64,000 nt of DNA from Qipengyuania psychrotolerans. GTDB lineage: Bacteria > Pseudomonadota > Alphaproteobacteria > Sphingomonadales > Sphingomonadaceae. The stretch is taken from NCBI RefSeq assembly GCF_019711355.1, contig NZ_CP081297.1, positions 186,001 through 250,000 of the forward strand, in the 5' to 3' direction. Made by a program: the position numbers and the translations under genes. The notes under the pieces were generated by a model that saw only the letters and a program-made list of their open reading frames with translations, made no database searches and was not told where the DNA came from. This document shows, in pieces, positions 25,721-30,923 of the stretch; the stretch's first letter is position 1; each line of letters opens with the position of its first letter.

Positions 25721-26722
25721 ATGATCGACGCGACCGAAGAGACAAGTACGGAAACCCCTCTCCTTTTCGGGCGAGTGCTCGATGGGAATGGCGGGGCGCG
25801 TGAAATCACGTGGGACGAAGCGCAAGGGTGGGCACCCCAGGCACCGGGAGAGGTCCTGTGGTTGCACCTGTGCCGCAACCGTGAAGGCGTGCAAAAGTGG
25901 CTCGAAGCAGAGCTTCAGATGCCTGAACCGACCGCGGAACTACTCACCAGCGATGCCAACCGTCCGCGTGCCTTTCGCGACGGTGAAACGCTGGTTGCGA
26001 CCTTGCGCGGGATCAATTTCAATCCCGGGGCACAACCCGAAGACATGATTTCGATGCAGCTATGGTGCGACGGTGACCGGCTGATCACCTTGCGCCGCCA
26101 CCCCATGCAGACCCCGCGCGAGGTCATGGCGATGCTCGACCGCGGCCATGGCCCGTCCGATGCTGGGGCCACCATTACCTTGCTGGCGGAGCTGCTTATT
26201 ACGCGGATGAGCCAGTCCATCGTGGACATGAATCACGTGCTTGACGATCTCGAAGATGAAGATCCCGAAAAAGACCCAGAAGGCATGCTGGGCCGCATTT
26301 CCACGATCCGCCGCAACTGCCTCAGTCTGAAACGGCACATGGCTCCGCAGCACGAGGCGCTGGAGCAAATCAGCCGCGATTCCCCCGATTGGTTCGAGGA
26401 AGAAGACAGGCGCGAAATCGCTGAGAGTATTGCGCGGCTGCGCCGCTATCTCGACGATATCGACATCAGTAAGGAAAGCGCGGTCGTGTTGCAGGACGAA
26501 CTGCGTGCTCGCAGCCTCGCCAGCAGTGAACACGCGACCTACATGCTCACCATCGTGGCGGGGATCTTCCTGCCGCTGGGCTTCCTGACCGGTCTGCTGG
26601 GTATCAATGTCGGCGGAATGCCGGGCATGGAAGACCCGGATGCATTCTGGCTGGTGGTTGGCCTGTGCCTGGTGCTCTTCGTAGCGCTGATCGTGACCTT
26701 CCGCCGCCTGCGCTGGCTCTGA
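25721..26722 (+). CDS. zntB: CorA-family zinc transporter ZntB
   Basis: A 333-residue protein with a large acidic cytoplasmic domain and two C-terminal helices. The loop between them reads LLGINVGGMPG, the GxN signature in the ZntB version rather than the YGMN of Mg-selective CorA. It would move Zn2+ or other divalent ions. A GGGAGGG before ATG 25721 sets the start. It converges with nrsF with 4 bases between stops. Its place next to a metal-stress bufferin locus may be meaningful. Confidence 0.88.
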   Translation: MIDATEETSTETPLLFGRVLDGNGGAREITWDEAQGWAPQAPGEVLWLHLCRNREGVQKWLEAELQMPEPTAELLTSDANRPRAFRDGETLVATLRGINFNPGAQPEDMISMQLWCDGDRLITLRRHPMQTPREVMAMLDRGHGPSDAGATITLLAELLITRMSQSIVDMNHVLDDLEDEDPEKDPEGMLGRISTIRRNCLSLKRHMAPQHEALEQISRDSPDWFEEEDRREIAESIARLRRYLDDIDISKESAVVLQDELRARSLASSEHATYMLTIVAGIFLPLGFLTGLLGINVGGMPGMEDPDAFWLVVGLCLVLFVALIVTFRRLRWL

Positions 26723-26726
26723 CGAT

Positions 26727-27380
26727 CTACCAGCGCACCAATGGCGGCACAGCAAAGCGGCCGACGAGTGCCATCAGCACAACCGGCGCGGCGTGCCAGA
26801 TGCCAAGGTGGCCGATCGTGTCGATCGGGCATGCCAGGCCGTAAGCAAAGCTTCCGATTGCACCTGCCGCGATACCGGTGAAGGTGCCTGCAGCGCCGAG
26901 CGATACGGGCGCCCCGCGGCGCAGCCACATGACCAGCGCGCCAGCCGTCACCAATCCGAATGCTGATCCGGCAAGGAAGCACTCGAACCCGTACATATCG
27001 CTCGAAACCGAGGCGAACAGCCCGCTGGCGCCAAGCACCAGCAAGGCCGTCAGCGGCAATAGGCCAAGCATGATAGCGGACCAGCGCGCGCCGTCGTGAG
27101 TGTTGCCTACACGCGGACTGGCCATTCGCAGGACGGCAATTGCCGAAGCCGTTCCGGCCAGGCCCAGCATGCCGTTCGCAAGGAAGAACACCCCAGAGGC
27201 CTCGCCCGCCGCGATGCCGCGCCAAAGGCCGTCGAGCAGTTCGACGAGCACCACCGTGACTGCAGCGGAAAGAGCGACCAGGGCCGCACCGTGCCACAGG
27301 CGGATTGGCGCCACGGGTGCCAGATCGCCAGCAAGCTCGTCGATGAGGGAGTTGGGAAGTCTGCCGCGTTCGGGGTTCAT
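26727..27380 (-). CDS. nrsF: NrsF-type membrane anti-sigma factor (DUF1109)
   Basis: A 217-residue protein with six predicted membrane helices, matching the NrsF/DUF1109 family that holds SigF inactive at the inner membrane. Two Cys, at about residues 134 (YGFECFL) and 184 (YGLACPID), are 50 residues apart; as I recall, the Caulobacter NrsF has two Cys with the same spacing that are needed to sense stress. It lies one base after the sigF stop. It closes the minus-strand operon bufA1-doxX-sigF-nrsF. Confidence 0.9.
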   Translation of the reverse strand: MNPERGRLPNSLIDELAGDLAPVAPIRLWHGAALVALSAAVTVVLVELLDGLWRGIAAGEASGVFFLANGMLGLAGTASAIAVLRMASPRVGNTHDGARWSAIMLGLLPLTALLVLGASGLFASVSSDMYGFECFLAGSAFGLVTAGALVMWLRRGAPVSLGAAGTFTGIAAGAIGSFAYGLACPIDTIGHLGIWHAAPVVLMALVGRFAVPPLVRW

Positions 27381-27381
27381 T

Positions 27382-27912
27382 CTATTCGGCCTTTTCTACG
27401 AGCGCGGACAGCTTTTTCAGTCCGCGATGGATATTCACTTTGACCAGGCTTTCGCTCTGGCCGGTCTTGGCGGAGGCTTCTGAAATGGTCAGCCCCTCGA
27501 TCTTTACGAGTTCGATGGCTTCGGCCTGTTTTTCCGGCAGATGGACGAACAGGCGTTCCAGGCTCATGCGCGCCATCACGGCTTCTTCTTCGCTGTCTTC
27601 GGCCGCGTCGTGATCACCGAGTTCGTCTTCGGCAGAGCGATAGACTTTGCGCAGGTGGTCGATCCACCGATAGCGTGCGATGGCGGCCAGCCAGGGGTAA
27701 AACGCACGGGCGGGGTCCCAGGTTGCCCGTTTGGAATGGACTGCCATCATCACTTCCTGCACCAGGTCGTCGAGCTGGGCCGGGGCGACACGCCTCCTGA
27801 AATAGCGTTCCAGCCAAAGCTGAATTTCAGTGAGTAGCGCGCGGTACATATCGCGGTCGCCCTTTTGCGAGGCGGCCATCATCTGCGCCATGGTGGCTTC
27901 ATCGGCGATCAT
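27382..27912 (-). CDS. sigF: ECF sigma factor SigF
   Basis: A 176-residue sigma-70 of the extracytoplasmic type. Region 2 includes AQLDDLVQEVMMAVHSKRATWDP and PWLAAIARYRWIDHLRK. Region 4 has LPEKQAEAIELVKIEGLTISEASAKTG followed by ESLVKVNIHRGLKKL, the DNA-reading helix. Paired with nrsF directly downstream. The two divergent bufferin promoters carry the motif expected for SigF, so the operon is probably autoregulated. GGAGGAC precedes the start. It controls responses to metal and oxidative stress in Caulobacter; the same role here is inferred. Confidence 0.92.
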   Translation of the reverse strand: MIADEATMAQMMAASQKGDRDMYRALLTEIQLWLERYFRRRVAPAQLDDLVQEVMMAVHSKRATWDPARAFYPWLAAIARYRWIDHLRKVYRSAEDELGDHDAAEDSEEEAVMARMSLERLFVHLPEKQAEAIELVKIEGLTISEASAKTGQSESLVKVNIHRGLKKLSALVEKAE

Positions 27913-27937
27913 CGCGCGTCCTCCACGTGCATTGCTA

Positions 27938-28396
27938 TCACTTGGCCCGGCGCGAGGCGAGGAGCGCGTCGAGCGACAGCATTCCGCCGCCGCGCGAAAC
28001 CAGAATCGCTGCCATCGCTACCCAGAGGATATGCGTGGTCCACCAGGCTTCCGGATAGACGAAGATCTGGATCACGAGCGTCATGATCAGCAGCGACAGC
28101 GCCGCAAACCGGGTAAAGAGACCGGCGGCCAGCAAGATTGGAAACAGATGCTCCGCATAGGTGGCCATCGGGACTGCGATATCGGGCGAAATTGGCAAGC
28201 CGGTATATTCGTATTCGAACAGGAAATAGGCGTTCTCACTAATGGACAGTGCGCTGCCTTCCTCCACCTTGGTTCTGCCAGAGCGCCAGAAAATTCCGGC
28301 CAGCGCCGCGCGGGTGACCAGCAGAGCCAGACCTTCGGGCAAGCGCGAGGCGAGCCAGGCGGTCAGGCGGTCGTAGGGGGTCAACAGTTTCTGCAT
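27938..28396 (-). CDS. DoxX-family membrane protein of the bufferin operon
   Basis: A 152-residue DoxX/TQO-small-subunit-like protein with four helices: LLVTRAALAGIFWRSGRTKVEEG, then AEHLFPILLAAGLFTRFAAL and a long C-terminal pair. DoxX proteins are frequent partners of bufferin and MNIO operons (called BufD in some descriptions), perhaps with a redox or quinone role. It sits between bufA1 (57 bases upstream) and sigF (25 bases downstream). Confidence 0.85.
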   Translation of the reverse strand: MQKLLTPYDRLTAWLASRLPEGLALLVTRAALAGIFWRSGRTKVEEGSALSISENAYFLFEYEYTGLPISPDIAVPMATYAEHLFPILLAAGLFTRFAALSLLIMTLVIQIFVYPEAWWTTHILWVAMAAILVSRGGGMLSLDALLASRRAK

Positions 28397-28453
28397 AGGT
28401 CACCTTGCTTCATCAGCGTGGGCTGGCCGGAGGGAGGGACGGGAAAGGTCGTC

Positions 28454-28741
28454 TCAGCGCTTGATCGCGGTGAGCGAACCCTTGCCCTTGGGGGTCTCGA
28501 TCTTTTCGCAGGTGCCCTTCTTGACCAGCTTCCACGCATCGCCCTGGTAGTCGCGGGTGGAGGTGCCTGCGCAGCTGGTGCCGGGTCCGGCGGCGCAGTC
28601 GTTCTCGCCTGCCTTGGCGACGCCGTAGCACTTCTCCATTGGCGGACGCTTTTGCGCGGCGGCCGGGCTGGCGACCATCGTGGTTGCAACGCCGGCAGTC
28701 AGGGCAAGACCCGCGAGACGGGCGATAGATTGGCTGTTCAT
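28454..28741 (-). CDS. bufA1: BufA1-type bufferin precursor (DUF2282)
   Basis: A 95-residue precursor with a Sec signal peptide (cleavage after AAAQ, about residue 29). The mature part matches DUF2282/BufA1: [19 protein letters not shown], then TSCAG, then [12 protein letters not shown], giving four Cys in the family pattern. In characterised bufferins the MNIO enzyme converts selected Cys to thiooxazoles and the product buffers copper in the periplasm. The start [11 protein letters not shown] is chosen over an upstream in-frame ATG that would lie before the promoter -10. First gene of the SigF operon. Confidence 0.92.
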
Positions 28742-28797
28742 GGCAATTCTCTCTCGAATGATGCGCCCCGACGATTGTCGCCGGGACTGGCCTGTCA

Positions 28798-28823
28798 TTC
28801 GGGAGGAATTCGAAACCGGTTAC
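28798..28823 (-). promoter_or_regulatory. SigF-type promoter for bufA1-doxX-sigF-nrsF
   Basis: On the minus strand GTAACC (28823-28818), a 16-base spacer, then CGAA (28801-28798). Transcription would begin roughly 50 bases before the bufA1 ATG. Identical in both elements and in spacing to the divergent promoter of bufA2, and to the SigF consensus of Caulobacter as I remember it. Confidence 0.82.
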
Positions 28824-28847
28824 TCGGCCACCAAAATTTTTCTCGCT

Positions 28848-28873
28848 GTAACCACCGGGTCCGGGGCGGCGAA
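28848..28873 (+). promoter_or_regulatory. SigF-type promoter for bufA2-bufB-bufC
   Basis: GTAACC (28848-28853), 16-base spacer, CGAA (28870-28873), about 50 bases before the bufA2 start. Only 24 bases separate it from the opposite-facing copy, so both operons should fire together when NrsF releases SigF. Confidence 0.82.
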
Positions 28874-28923
28874 CGGTCTTGTGTGCACCGACGCACATTC
28901 GAGATCACAAGGAACTGGATGCC

Positions 28924-29211
28924 ATGACGATTACCGCCCGCAAAACTGCCACTGCAGCAGCCGCTGCAGCTTTCGCTCTCAGCTCGATGAGCGCATTCGC
29001 CGCGCCCGCCCCTGCCGGAAGCAGCGGTTCGGCGATCGCTGCCGAAGACACTGTCCATTGTTACGGCGTCCACAGCTGCAAGGGCCAGGCAGACTGCGCC
29101 ACCAGCGAAAACGCCTGCAAGGGCCAGAACGAATGCAAGGGCCATGGCTTCAAGGCGATGAAGGCCGGTGAATGCCTGACCAGGGGCGGAACCATCGGCG
29201 ACATCGGCTGA
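28924..29211 (+). CDS. bufA2: BufA2-type bufferin precursor
   Basis: A 95-residue precursor with an Ala-rich signal peptide (cleavage after AFA, about residue 26). The mature part carries six Cys in the BufA2 pattern: HCYGVHSCKG, ADCATSENACKG, QNECKGHGF and a last AGEC. Such peptides are modified at Cys by an MNIO enzyme and bind copper in the periplasm. AAGGA precedes the ATG at 28924. It leads the plus-strand operon with bufB and bufC. It differs fully in sequence from bufA1 opposite. Confidence 0.92.
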   Translation: MTITARKTATAAAAAAFALSSMSAFAAPAPAGSSGSAIAAEDTVHCYGVHSCKGQADCATSENACKGQNECKGHGFKAMKAGECLTRGGTIGDIG

Positions 29212-29216
29212 TCCGA

Positions 29217-29240
29217 ACACCGCGCTTGGCGGCCCGGTGT
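29217..29240 (+). promoter_or_regulatory. Hairpin between bufA2 and bufB
   Basis: ACACCG and CGGTGT arms (6 bp) around a 12-base loop, just after the bufA2 stop. It could partly reduce read-through so that precursor exceeds enzyme, as is usual in RiPP operons. Weak stem, no T-run. Confidence 0.4.
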
Positions 29241-29322
29241 GAGGAGGCGAGCACCCCCCTTCGTCCGCCTCCGAAAACCCTCACCGGGTCGCCATTTCCC
29301 GCCATTTAACGGACATCAACAG

Positions 29323-30156
29323 ATGCACGATATCGCACCATTTTCCGGTTTCGGGCTCGGCCTTCGCCGTACCCACTACACCGACTTTCTGGACGGCGAT
29401 GTGCCCGTCGATTTTGTCGAGGTGATCTCGGAAAATTACATGGTCGAAGGCGGCATGCCGCTGCGCCTGCTGGAACAGATCCGCGCGAAACATCCCGTCA
29501 TTCTCCACGGGGTGTCCATGTCGATCGGTTCGGCGCATGGGCTGGATGCGGACCATCTTGTGCGCCTCAAGCTGCTGGCCGACCGGATCGACCCACTGTG
29601 GGTTTCCGACCATCTGTGCTGGACCCGCACCAGCGCGCACAATTCGCACGACCTGCTCCCGCTGCCGCTGACGCAGGAAGCGATGGATACGGTGTGCGAG
29701 AACATCGACCGCGCGCAAACAGCGCTGGGGCGGGCGATGCTGTTCGAGAACCCTTCCAGCTATCTCACTTTCCCGGAAGACGAGATGGCCGAATGGGAAT
29801 TCCTGTCCGCGATGGCGCGCCGGACCGGATGTTACCTTCTGCTGGACGTGAACAACGTTTATGTCAGCGCGCAGAACCACGGCTTTTCAGCCGCCGAATA
29901 CGTGGGCGGTCTCCCGCTCGATAGAGTGCGCCAGATTCACCTAGCCGGACACACGCCCGGAGAAATTTTGATCGACACGCATGACCGTGAAGTCTGCGAC
30001 GAGGTCTGGGCGCTATATGCTGATACCATCGCCAAAACCGGCCCTGTCGCCACGATGATCGAACGCGACGACAAGATTCCGCCGGTTGGCGAACTCCTGT
30101 GCGAACTCGAACGCGCCCGCAGCCTCTCGGCGAGCCATCAGGCAGTAGCGGCATGA
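29323..30156 (+). CDS. bufB: MNIO-family (DUF692) bufferin maturation enzyme BufB
   Basis: A 277-residue TIM-barrel enzyme of the multinuclear non-haem iron oxidative (MNIO, DUF692) family. Metal-ligand segments in order: FVEVISENYM, ILHGVSMSIGSA, WVSDHLCW, LFENPSSYL, LLDVNNVYVSAQNHG, IHLAGH and IDTHDREV. With BufC it installs oxygen-dependent thiooxazole-type changes on Cys of the precursor. The start MHDIAPFSGFGLGLR is the usual family N-terminus. It overlaps bufC (ATGA). It is the only MNIO gene in the window, although there are two precursors. Confidence 0.94.
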   Translation: MHDIAPFSGFGLGLRRTHYTDFLDGDVPVDFVEVISENYMVEGGMPLRLLEQIRAKHPVILHGVSMSIGSAHGLDADHLVRLKLLADRIDPLWVSDHLCWTRTSAHNSHDLLPLPLTQEAMDTVCENIDRAQTALGRAMLFENPSSYLTFPEDEMAEWEFLSAMARRTGCYLLLDVNNVYVSAQNHGFSAAEYVGGLPLDRVRQIHLAGHTPGEILIDTHDREVCDEVWALYADTIAKTGPVATMIERDDKIPPVGELLCELERARSLSASHQAVAA

Positions 30157-30923
30157 GCGCCCTTGCGCAGATGCAGGAGGCCATGCTTTCCAACATCCTC
30201 GATGAGGATTTGCCGTTGCCCGGTCATTGGAACAAGCGCCATGCGGCGGGTCTTGCCATTTATCGTAACAACTATCGCTCGGCCTTGATCGATGCGCTCA
30301 GATCCACTTTCGAGCGCACCGAGAGATTGGTGGGCGAAGAAAGCTTCGCCCGCGCTGCAGCGCATCACCTGATTGCCAAGCCCCCATCCAGCTGGACGCT
30401 CGATATGGCCGGTGCAGGTTTTGACGAAACCTGTGTGCAACTGTTCGCTGGCGATCCCGAGGTTGCCGAACTCGCGTGGCTCGAATGGGCCATGCACTGC
30501 GCCTTTGTTGCCCGCGATGTAGCGCCGCTAGAGATGGCAGACTTTGCCACGGCCACTGCCGCGTTCAGCGAACAGGATTGGGCAGGTCTGCGGCTGGAAA
30601 TCGTACCAGGGACAGGGTTGCGGACCGTGCATCACGACCTGAAGCCCTTGTGGACCTCACTTGCCGCAAATGACGTTCAGCCCGACATCCAGCGGCTGCC
30701 ATGTGCCATGTGCGCGGTCGTCTGGCGCGAAGGCGAACGGCCCGTATTCATCCTGATACAGGAGGAAGAGGGCGATGCGCTGTCCGCCATGATGCAGGAT
30801 GCCACCTACGGCGAGGCGTGCGAAATGCTGGTGGACCGAATGGGCGAAGAGCAGGCAATCACGCTTGCAGGCGCCATGCTGGGCCGCTGGCTATCCGAAG
30901 GGCTTGTTACCAGAGCCGCCTAA
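30153..30923 (+). CDS. bufC: BufC/HvfC partner protein (DUF2063)
   Basis: A 256-residue protein: the N-terminal DUF2063 domain includes GLAIYRNNYRSALIDALRSTFERTERLVGEESF, the signature of the MNIO partner that recruits the leader or signal part of the precursor. The C-terminal half is the looser recognition domain. Its ATG overlaps the bufB stop, so production is coupled. It ends 4 bases inside the convergent SDR gene. Confidence 0.92.
   Translation: MSALAQMQEAMLSNILDEDLPLPGHWNKRHAAGLAIYRNNYRSALIDALRSTFERTERLVGEESFARAAAHHLIAKPPSSWTLDMAGAGFDETCVQLFAGDPEVAELAWLEWAMHCAFVARDVAPLEMADFATATAAFSEQDWAGLRLEIVPGTGLRTVHHDLKPLWTSLAANDVQPDIQRLPCAMCAVVWREGERPVFILIQEEEGDALSAMMQDATYGEACEMLVDRMGEEQAITLAGAMLGRWLSEGLVTRAA

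Follow-up and report, generated by a model that had tools for sequence, protein, structure and literature searches.

One BufB-BufC pair and two bufferin precursors at a divergent locus of Qipengyuania psychrotolerans: a probable dual-substrate maturation system

Within a stretch of 64,000 nucleotides from Qipengyuania psychrotolerans (contig NZ_CP081297.1, positions 186,001 to 250,000; hereafter the window), two divergent operons form a bufferin locus that combines precursors of two classes with one set of maturation enzymes. The minus-strand operon is bufA1-doxX-sigF-nrsF and the plus-strand operon is bufA2-bufB-bufC. Judging from sequence comparison, we consider it probable (about 0.78) that the one BufB-BufC pair, which is of the Buf2 lineage, matures both BufA1 and BufA2. 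The features are listed in window positions, with the cut-off of each model in brackets after the bit score.

26727-30923: the locus overall, flanked by a CorA gene ending at 26722 and, at the other side, by a convergent open reading frame (ORF) of 320 residues
26727..27380, minus strand: nrsF, membrane anti-sigma factor; Pfam NrsF 121.9 bits (26.8)
27382..27912, minus strand: sigF, extracytoplasmic function (ECF) sigma factor; Pfam Sigma70_r4_2 49.3 bits (25.7), TIGR02937 77.5 bits (42.9)
27938..28396, minus strand: doxX, membrane protein usual in bufferin clusters; Pfam DoxX 57.9 bits (23.6)
28454..28741, minus strand: bufA1, DUF2282 precursor of 95 residues with four Cys; Pfam DUF2282 90.3 bits (22.4)
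28798..28823, minus strand: predicted sigmaF promoter of bufA1-doxX-sigF-nrsF; exact GTAACC-N16-CGAA, 56 bases before the bufA1 ATG
28848..28873, plus strand: predicted sigmaF promoter of bufA2-bufB-bufC; exact GTAACC-N16-CGAA, 50 bases before the bufA2 ATG
28924..29211, plus strand: bufA2, Buf2 precursor of 95 residues with six Cys; NCBIfam NF050166 101.8 bits (60)
29323..30156, plus strand: bufB, MNIO maturase of the Buf2 lineage, 277 residues; MbnB_TglH_ChrH PF05114 357.5 bits (25)
30067..30072, plus strand: codons of BufB Asp249 and Asp250, from alignment and translation
30153..30923, plus strand: bufC, DUF2063 partner protein of 256 residues; Pfam DUF2063 65.3 bits (27.2)

The positions, order and strands of the seven genes had been proposed in an earlier note on this DNA, and all were borne out by Pfam, NCBIfam and the translations. 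BufB also matches the bufferin-maturase model NCBIfam NF050167 (375.4 bits, cut-off 310) and has relatives among solved structures (3bww, 8hci and 7fc0). BufC had no sequence match to solved structures at E 0.1 and no matching NCBIfam model in the scan of the locus proteins; the N-terminal DUF2063 was the one domain reported by Pfam, and an RRE-type second domain was not among the Pfam matches. NrsF matches the NCBIfam equivalog NF042994 weakly (25.8 bits, below the cut-off of 300). Preferred starts were chosen by inspection (BufA1 ATG 28741, BufB ATG 29323, BufC ATG 30153), that of BufA1 because the first base of a longer alternative, ATG 28798, coincides with the final base of the sigmaF -10 element. 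The bufC start overlaps the bufB stop, and four bases of bufC are shared with the 3' end of the convergent ORF. Both precursors have by inspection a putative signal peptide, in BufA1 with a basic start, a hydrophobic stretch and ASPAAA-Q.

The operons diverge from a 76-base region (28798-28873) made up of two exact sigmaF sites in back-to-back orientation, 24 bases apart, a pair which the earlier note had missed. GTAACC-N16-CGAA is the sigmaF promoter motif of Caulobacter (PMC3511200); the window has one exact site facing each operon, against 0.11 expected, and none of 100 shuffled windows had two. In merged loci such as this one, a site with no more than one mismatch lies upstream of bufA1 in 44 of 45 and of bufA2 in 44 of 45 distinct loci (exact sites: 23/45 and 35/45), with 0 and 0 for the reversed control at the same tolerance. 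In loci that lack bufA2, such a site precedes bufA1 in 20/20 and bufB in 15/20 distinct loci (exact: 17/20 and 3/20; reversed control at one mismatch or fewer, 0 and 1), and in loci with BufA2 as the only precursor it lies upstream of bufA2 in 5 of 30. There is strong sequence evidence that sigmaF co-regulates both operons, and as each has one site and the bufA1 operon includes sigF-nrsF, free sigmaF should raise precursors, enzymes and itself together. The presence of sigmaF sites at both promoters argues for maturation of the two precursors by the same pair. Cys134 and Cys184 of NrsF, both kept in 66 of 66 NrsF rows, are likely a sensor pair by comparison with Caulobacter NrsF, where the conserved cysteines are C131 and C181 (PMC3511200), and by the same likeness a metal signal may pass through NrsF.

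As a genome-wide regulon finder the motif was rejected, since 16 exact sites were found against 14 for the reversed pattern, so that most of them are due to chance. Beyond the buf locus, this genome's exact sites looked promoter-like in only two places: a site 128 bases upstream of an ORF resembling methionine sulfoxide reductase (locus L013, about 1450-1530), and two sites face to face between oxidoreductase-like and epimerase-like ORFs (L176, about 1480-1610), these neighbours having been typed by Pfam on 90-residue pieces. They could be members of the sigmaF regulon, but across the genome exact sites occur no more often than the reversed control.

The genome is a single contig of 2,743,956 bases (99.99% complete) with one match each for MNIO (PF05114), DUF2063 (PF09836) and DUF2282 (PF10048) and one BufA2. 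The earlier description of BufB and BufC as the only ones in the window thus holds for the entire genome, and a second bufBC pair, which would have spoken against a shared enzyme, was not found in the searches with PF05114 and PF09836. One MNIO with one DUF2063 protein is a first argument for dual maturation. The locus is also less exceptional than had been supposed. Among 149 genomes of the host's family, MNIO was found in 48, DUF2282 in 46 and BufA2 over cut-off in 30, and the state seen here, one MNIO hit with both precursor classes, is the commonest of those in the MNIO-bearing genomes (18/48); 15 have one MNIO with DUF2282 only, 2 with BufA2 only and 2 with neither, while 11 have two or more MNIO hits (genome G018 by virtue of two contig-edge fragments). 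In a class sample of 387 genomes, 140 of the 142 with DUF2282 also have an MNIO, the exceptions being G414 and G600, and this association likewise counts for dual maturation.

Relatives that lack bufA2 provide further evidence. In a sample of 100 genomes from the genus of G041, MNIO occurred in 60, DUF2282 in 64 and BufA2 over cut-off in 13. An MNIO of Buf2 type (at least 340 bits, assigned by hand) was present in 46, of which 12 have BufA2 and 34, at least 90% complete in 30 cases, do not. Every one of these 34 has a single MNIO hit with a DUF2282 gene on the opposite strand 326-591 bases upstream, and this retention of BufBC beside BufA1 in 34 of 46 genomes is a reason for assigning BufA1 to the pair. 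BufA1, BufB and BufC are under purifying selection in the bufA2-less loci, with median pN/pS (proportions of non-synonymous to synonymous differences) of 0.13, 0.19 and 0.41, respectively (136 pairs, 17 loci); these values, and the substitution-rate ratios (dN/dS) given below, are pairwise Nei-Gojobori estimates on domain segments.

A residue of BufB points in the same direction. MNIOs that act on Cys-Lys motifs have Asp at the position of FonB Phe250, where contact with the Lys of BufA2 has been modelled, and FonB-Asp249 is the proposed base (PMC13097082); the window BufB carries Asp249-Asp250. The proposed catalytic Asp249 site is Asp in 125 of 126 aligned rows, with one Gly. At the 250 site, Asp is found in 42/45 rows with both precursors and in 30/31 rows with BufA2 only (72/76 BufA2-associated), but in only 9 of 20 bufA2-less rows (Glu 8, Ala 2, Gly 1), and enzymes with their own BufA1 have Thr, Asn, Ser or Ala in 19/19. 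On the tree the site changes 9 times with the bufA2-less rows and 4 times without them. Of 96 columns conserved to at least 90% in the 76 BufA2-associated rows, 85 are wholly kept in the bufA2-less rows, and of the 96 the 250 site ranks second in extent of change and first in variety. This pattern fits a release from BufA2-specific constraint while the enzyme remains in use.

The precursors themselves are less unlike than the earlier note had them. They do belong to two classes; their mature parts, however, have a core in common (hhalign probability 80, pairwise E 1.3e-5, from shallow alignments), with Cys1-4 of BufA1 aligned to Cys1, 3, 4 and 6 of BufA2. The BufA1 cysteine spacing of 11-8-21 is retained in 63/63 rows (44/44 merged, 19/19 bufA2-less), and compared with 10 relatives dN/dS is 0.03-0.37 for BufA1 and 0.04-0.16 for BufA2. 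For Buf1, PMC12452194 describes modification of the central cysteines and a disulphide between the outer two. Only two family genomes, G051 and G128, have DUF2282 but no MNIO, and their DUF2282 proteins (L140, L141) have lost the central two Cys and kept the outer pair. Conserved spacing and low dN/dS beside the enzyme, together with loss of the central Cys where there is no MNIO, argue for modification of BufA1 by this pair. The L140 protein has a clear lipobox.

The lineage of the enzyme was assessed from 141 BufB rows, classed by neighbouring precursors: 52 have BufA2 upstream with BufA1 divergent, 30 BufA2 only, 28 BufA1 divergent without BufA2, 18 BufA1 upstream, 11 no precursor and 2 other. 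The loci cover all 60 family MNIO hits (one being the window) and the best 30 of 63 genus hits, and 54 named loci were found by exact words of the window BufB, which biases them to close relatives. Loci L001, L002, L003 and L014, repeats of the window, were left out of counts, and L214-L216 were not used. With our own profiles, which were seeded with the window's proteins, BufA domains had to exceed 40 bits to be kept, and rows of a single genome may appear under two locus ids. Removal of fragments below 600 nt and of identical BufB sequences left 126 rows for the tree. Of the relatives found, that of Qipengyuania gaetbuli is nearest (85% over 260 columns), and the window BufB falls in a supported set of 54 rows, 33 with both precursors, 20 with divergent BufA1 only and 1 with BufA2 only. 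Enzymes with BufA1 directly upstream mostly (14 of 19) form a separate group with one precursor-less row (Shimodaira-Hasegawa-like approximate likelihood ratio test, 94), five lying elsewhere. At 17 columns separating own-BufA1 from BufA2-only enzymes (picked by majority, at least 70% in each group), the window BufB has the Buf2-type majority residue at 16 and the bufA2-less rows at 15, the latter with residues 60 and 86 as exceptions; residue 60 is Ile in the window and in the majority of merged loci, and mostly Val in BufA2-only rows. By these comparisons the window BufB is of the Buf2 enzyme lineage.

That lineage is what one would see if BufBC modified BufA2 alone and BufA1 worked unmodified, as a thiol or disulphide protein. 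Unmodified precursors in single-enzyme genomes are allowed for in PMC12452194, and the DUF2282 protein does persist in G051 and G128 without any MNIO. We nevertheless regard this explanation as unlikely, because 34 genomes retain the enzyme lineage without BufA2, and because the DUF2282 proteins of G051 and G128 are without the central Cys, which BufA1 beside this enzyme keeps in all 63 rows.

A different reading of the bufA2-less relatives is that their BufBC serves some unrelated, unrecognised precursor, which would make those genomes uninformative about BufA1. Precursors outside the known families exist (PMC12452194), and small Cys-bearing ORFs can be drawn in most of the bufA2-less gaps. 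These ORFs vary between loci, however, and none is BufA-like in 28 loci with 20 distinct gaps, the best match to our own BufA1 and BufA2 profiles having an E of 0.49. Most bufA2-less genomes furthermore have a second, distant DUF2282 gene, which fits DUF2282 substrates; the ORF search covered the gaps, and we consider this reading very unlikely. Maturation of BufA1 by a further MNIO from outside the locus is extremely unlikely. A second operon equipped with enzymes is known from Caulobacter (PMC3511200) and a replicon absent from the assembly is conceivable, but the search of this nearly complete one-contig genome gave the idea no support.

The distant DUF2282 genes form a set of their own. 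In the genus of G041, 37 solitary loci lie far from any MNIO (L177-L213; others are L127-L130 and L138), 32 of them from bufA2-less genomes. An exact sigmaF site lies upstream in 28/37, and in their 77,437 bases the exact motif occurs 28 times and the reversed pattern once. A lipobox was recognised by pattern in 30/37 proteins and by eye in 3 more (L181, L186, L187), followed by an acidic linker and then the four-Cys core. Their sequences suggest lipoprotein precursors of the Buf1 class under sigmaF control, for which the maturase would have to be encoded at another locus.

Several observations weigh against maturation of both precursors by one pair. BufB groups with Buf2-type enzymes, apart from those sharing an operon with BufA1, which is the look expected of an enzyme for BufA2 alone. 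Some rows retain Asp250 though BufA2 is gone, and the most changed column in the bufA2-less rows is residue 46 (Pro to Gln), which is unexplained. G051 and G128 belong to one genus, so that the loss of the central Cys is perhaps one event. Likewise, the bufA2-less lineages may reflect a single loss: the best tree has three changes, the starred branches force two and 0 of 200 bootstrap trees have one, but several independent losses could not be upheld, as the approximately unbiased (AU) test does not reject a single clade (p 0.33; L101 was excluded from the smaller tree used here). In L101 (5229-9658), two complete divergent systems adjoin, bufA2-bufB-bufC and bufA1-bufB-bufC-doxX, so that each precursor has its own enzyme pair, with one enzyme of each type; this is possibly a picture of the state preceding the merged layout. 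Of the two outcomes posed by the earlier note, a dual-substrate pair or an orphaned BufA1, the comparative evidence favours the first, and modification of BufA1 and BufA2 in this bacterium is itself something that we infer.

If one pair does serve both precursors, metal stress would free sigmaF from NrsF by way of the two conserved Cys of the latter, and free sigmaF would raise both precursors, the enzymes and sigmaF itself. BufBC would bind both precursors, probably via the signal-peptide region, in line with a preliminary statement in PMC12452194. BufB would then form copper-binding heterocycles, which in Caulobacter bufferin 1 are thiooxazoles, from the central two Cys of BufA1 and from those Cys of BufA2 that can be modified; both this chemistry and copper binding are assigned here by family membership. 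Asp250 would assist with the Cys-Lys motifs of BufA2 and be dispensable for BufA1. Exported by the Sec machinery, the two peptides would hold excess periplasmic copper.

Two divergent layouts recur among the loci, that of the window and one in which bufA1-doxX diverges from sigF-nrsF-bufA2-bufB-bufC (for example L069 and L084; also L070, L071, L090, L093, L094 and L100). In 7 of the 8 alternative-layout loci BufA1 has Lys directly after its second Cys, which is the case in 0 of 36 merged loci arranged like that of the window. In Cupriavidus necator A5-1 (L037, 4989-8556), bufA1-doxX and bufA2-bufB-bufC lie on one strand and BufB falls among the sphingomonad-family enzymes in the tree, so this locus was possibly acquired by gene transfer. 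MNIO-partner pairs with neither BufA1 nor BufA2 recognised nearby (L083, L102, L103 and the second BufB of L045, L048 and L057) form two supported groups in the tree and possibly serve novel precursors.

The closest known counterpart is the sigmaF regulon of Caulobacter, with its two bufferin operons CC3254-CC3257 and CC2907-CC2905 (PMC3511200). There too both precursors are under one sigmaF with NrsF, with the same promoter motif and the same gene families, but each has a DUF692/DUF2063 pair at a separate locus, as the earlier note had correctly stated, whereas here one pair is present and both operons are served by a single 76-base promoter region. PMC12452194 describes precursors in tandem as well as genomes in which several precursors accompany a single enzyme pair, and calls for study of them; several precursors with one MNIO/PME-type 1 pair is exactly the situation of the window, and a shared enzyme is raised in the Discussion of that paper. 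The matter is left open there; here the question is informed by the loss of one precursor, the relaxation of a residue, the decay of Cys where MNIO is absent and the promoter region common to both operons. It also places sigma/anti-sigma genes in Buf1 and not in Buf2 clusters, unlike the one set that serves both in this locus. The captophorin MNIOs are of the same enzyme class, and the Asp that marks Cys-Lys enzymes is present here as Asp250 (PMC13097082); there each MNIO is assigned to one class of substrate, whereas here a Cys-Lys-type enzyme is the sole option for a DUF2282 precursor. The accessible part of PMC12538549 adds nothing on the shared enzyme, and in the literature searched, mainly open-access, we recognised none that deals with the divergent layout described here or with the loss of bufA2 in the host's family.

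An arrangement of one enzyme pair and two precursors is thus of a known kind, and the bufA2-less relatives give the control that the published question lacked. Whether one MNIO-partner pair matures different bufferin classes is stated as open in PMC12452194; the window locus and these relatives make the question directly testable and single out one residue. A broader picture, to which we give about even odds, is that a broad-range Buf2-lineage maturase serves a sigmaF-switched set of precursors, namely periplasmic Buf1, Buf2 and, in relatives, distant membrane-anchored lipoprotein Buf1, so that precursors would be lost and gained from lineage to lineage around a constant enzyme, with Asp250 tracking the continued use of Cys-Lys substrates. 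Substrate range would in that case be set by the shared core and the signal peptide and not by operon pairing. Should one pair indeed mature both precursors, operon neighbours would not reveal substrates, and precursors that look orphaned could be assigned an enzyme.

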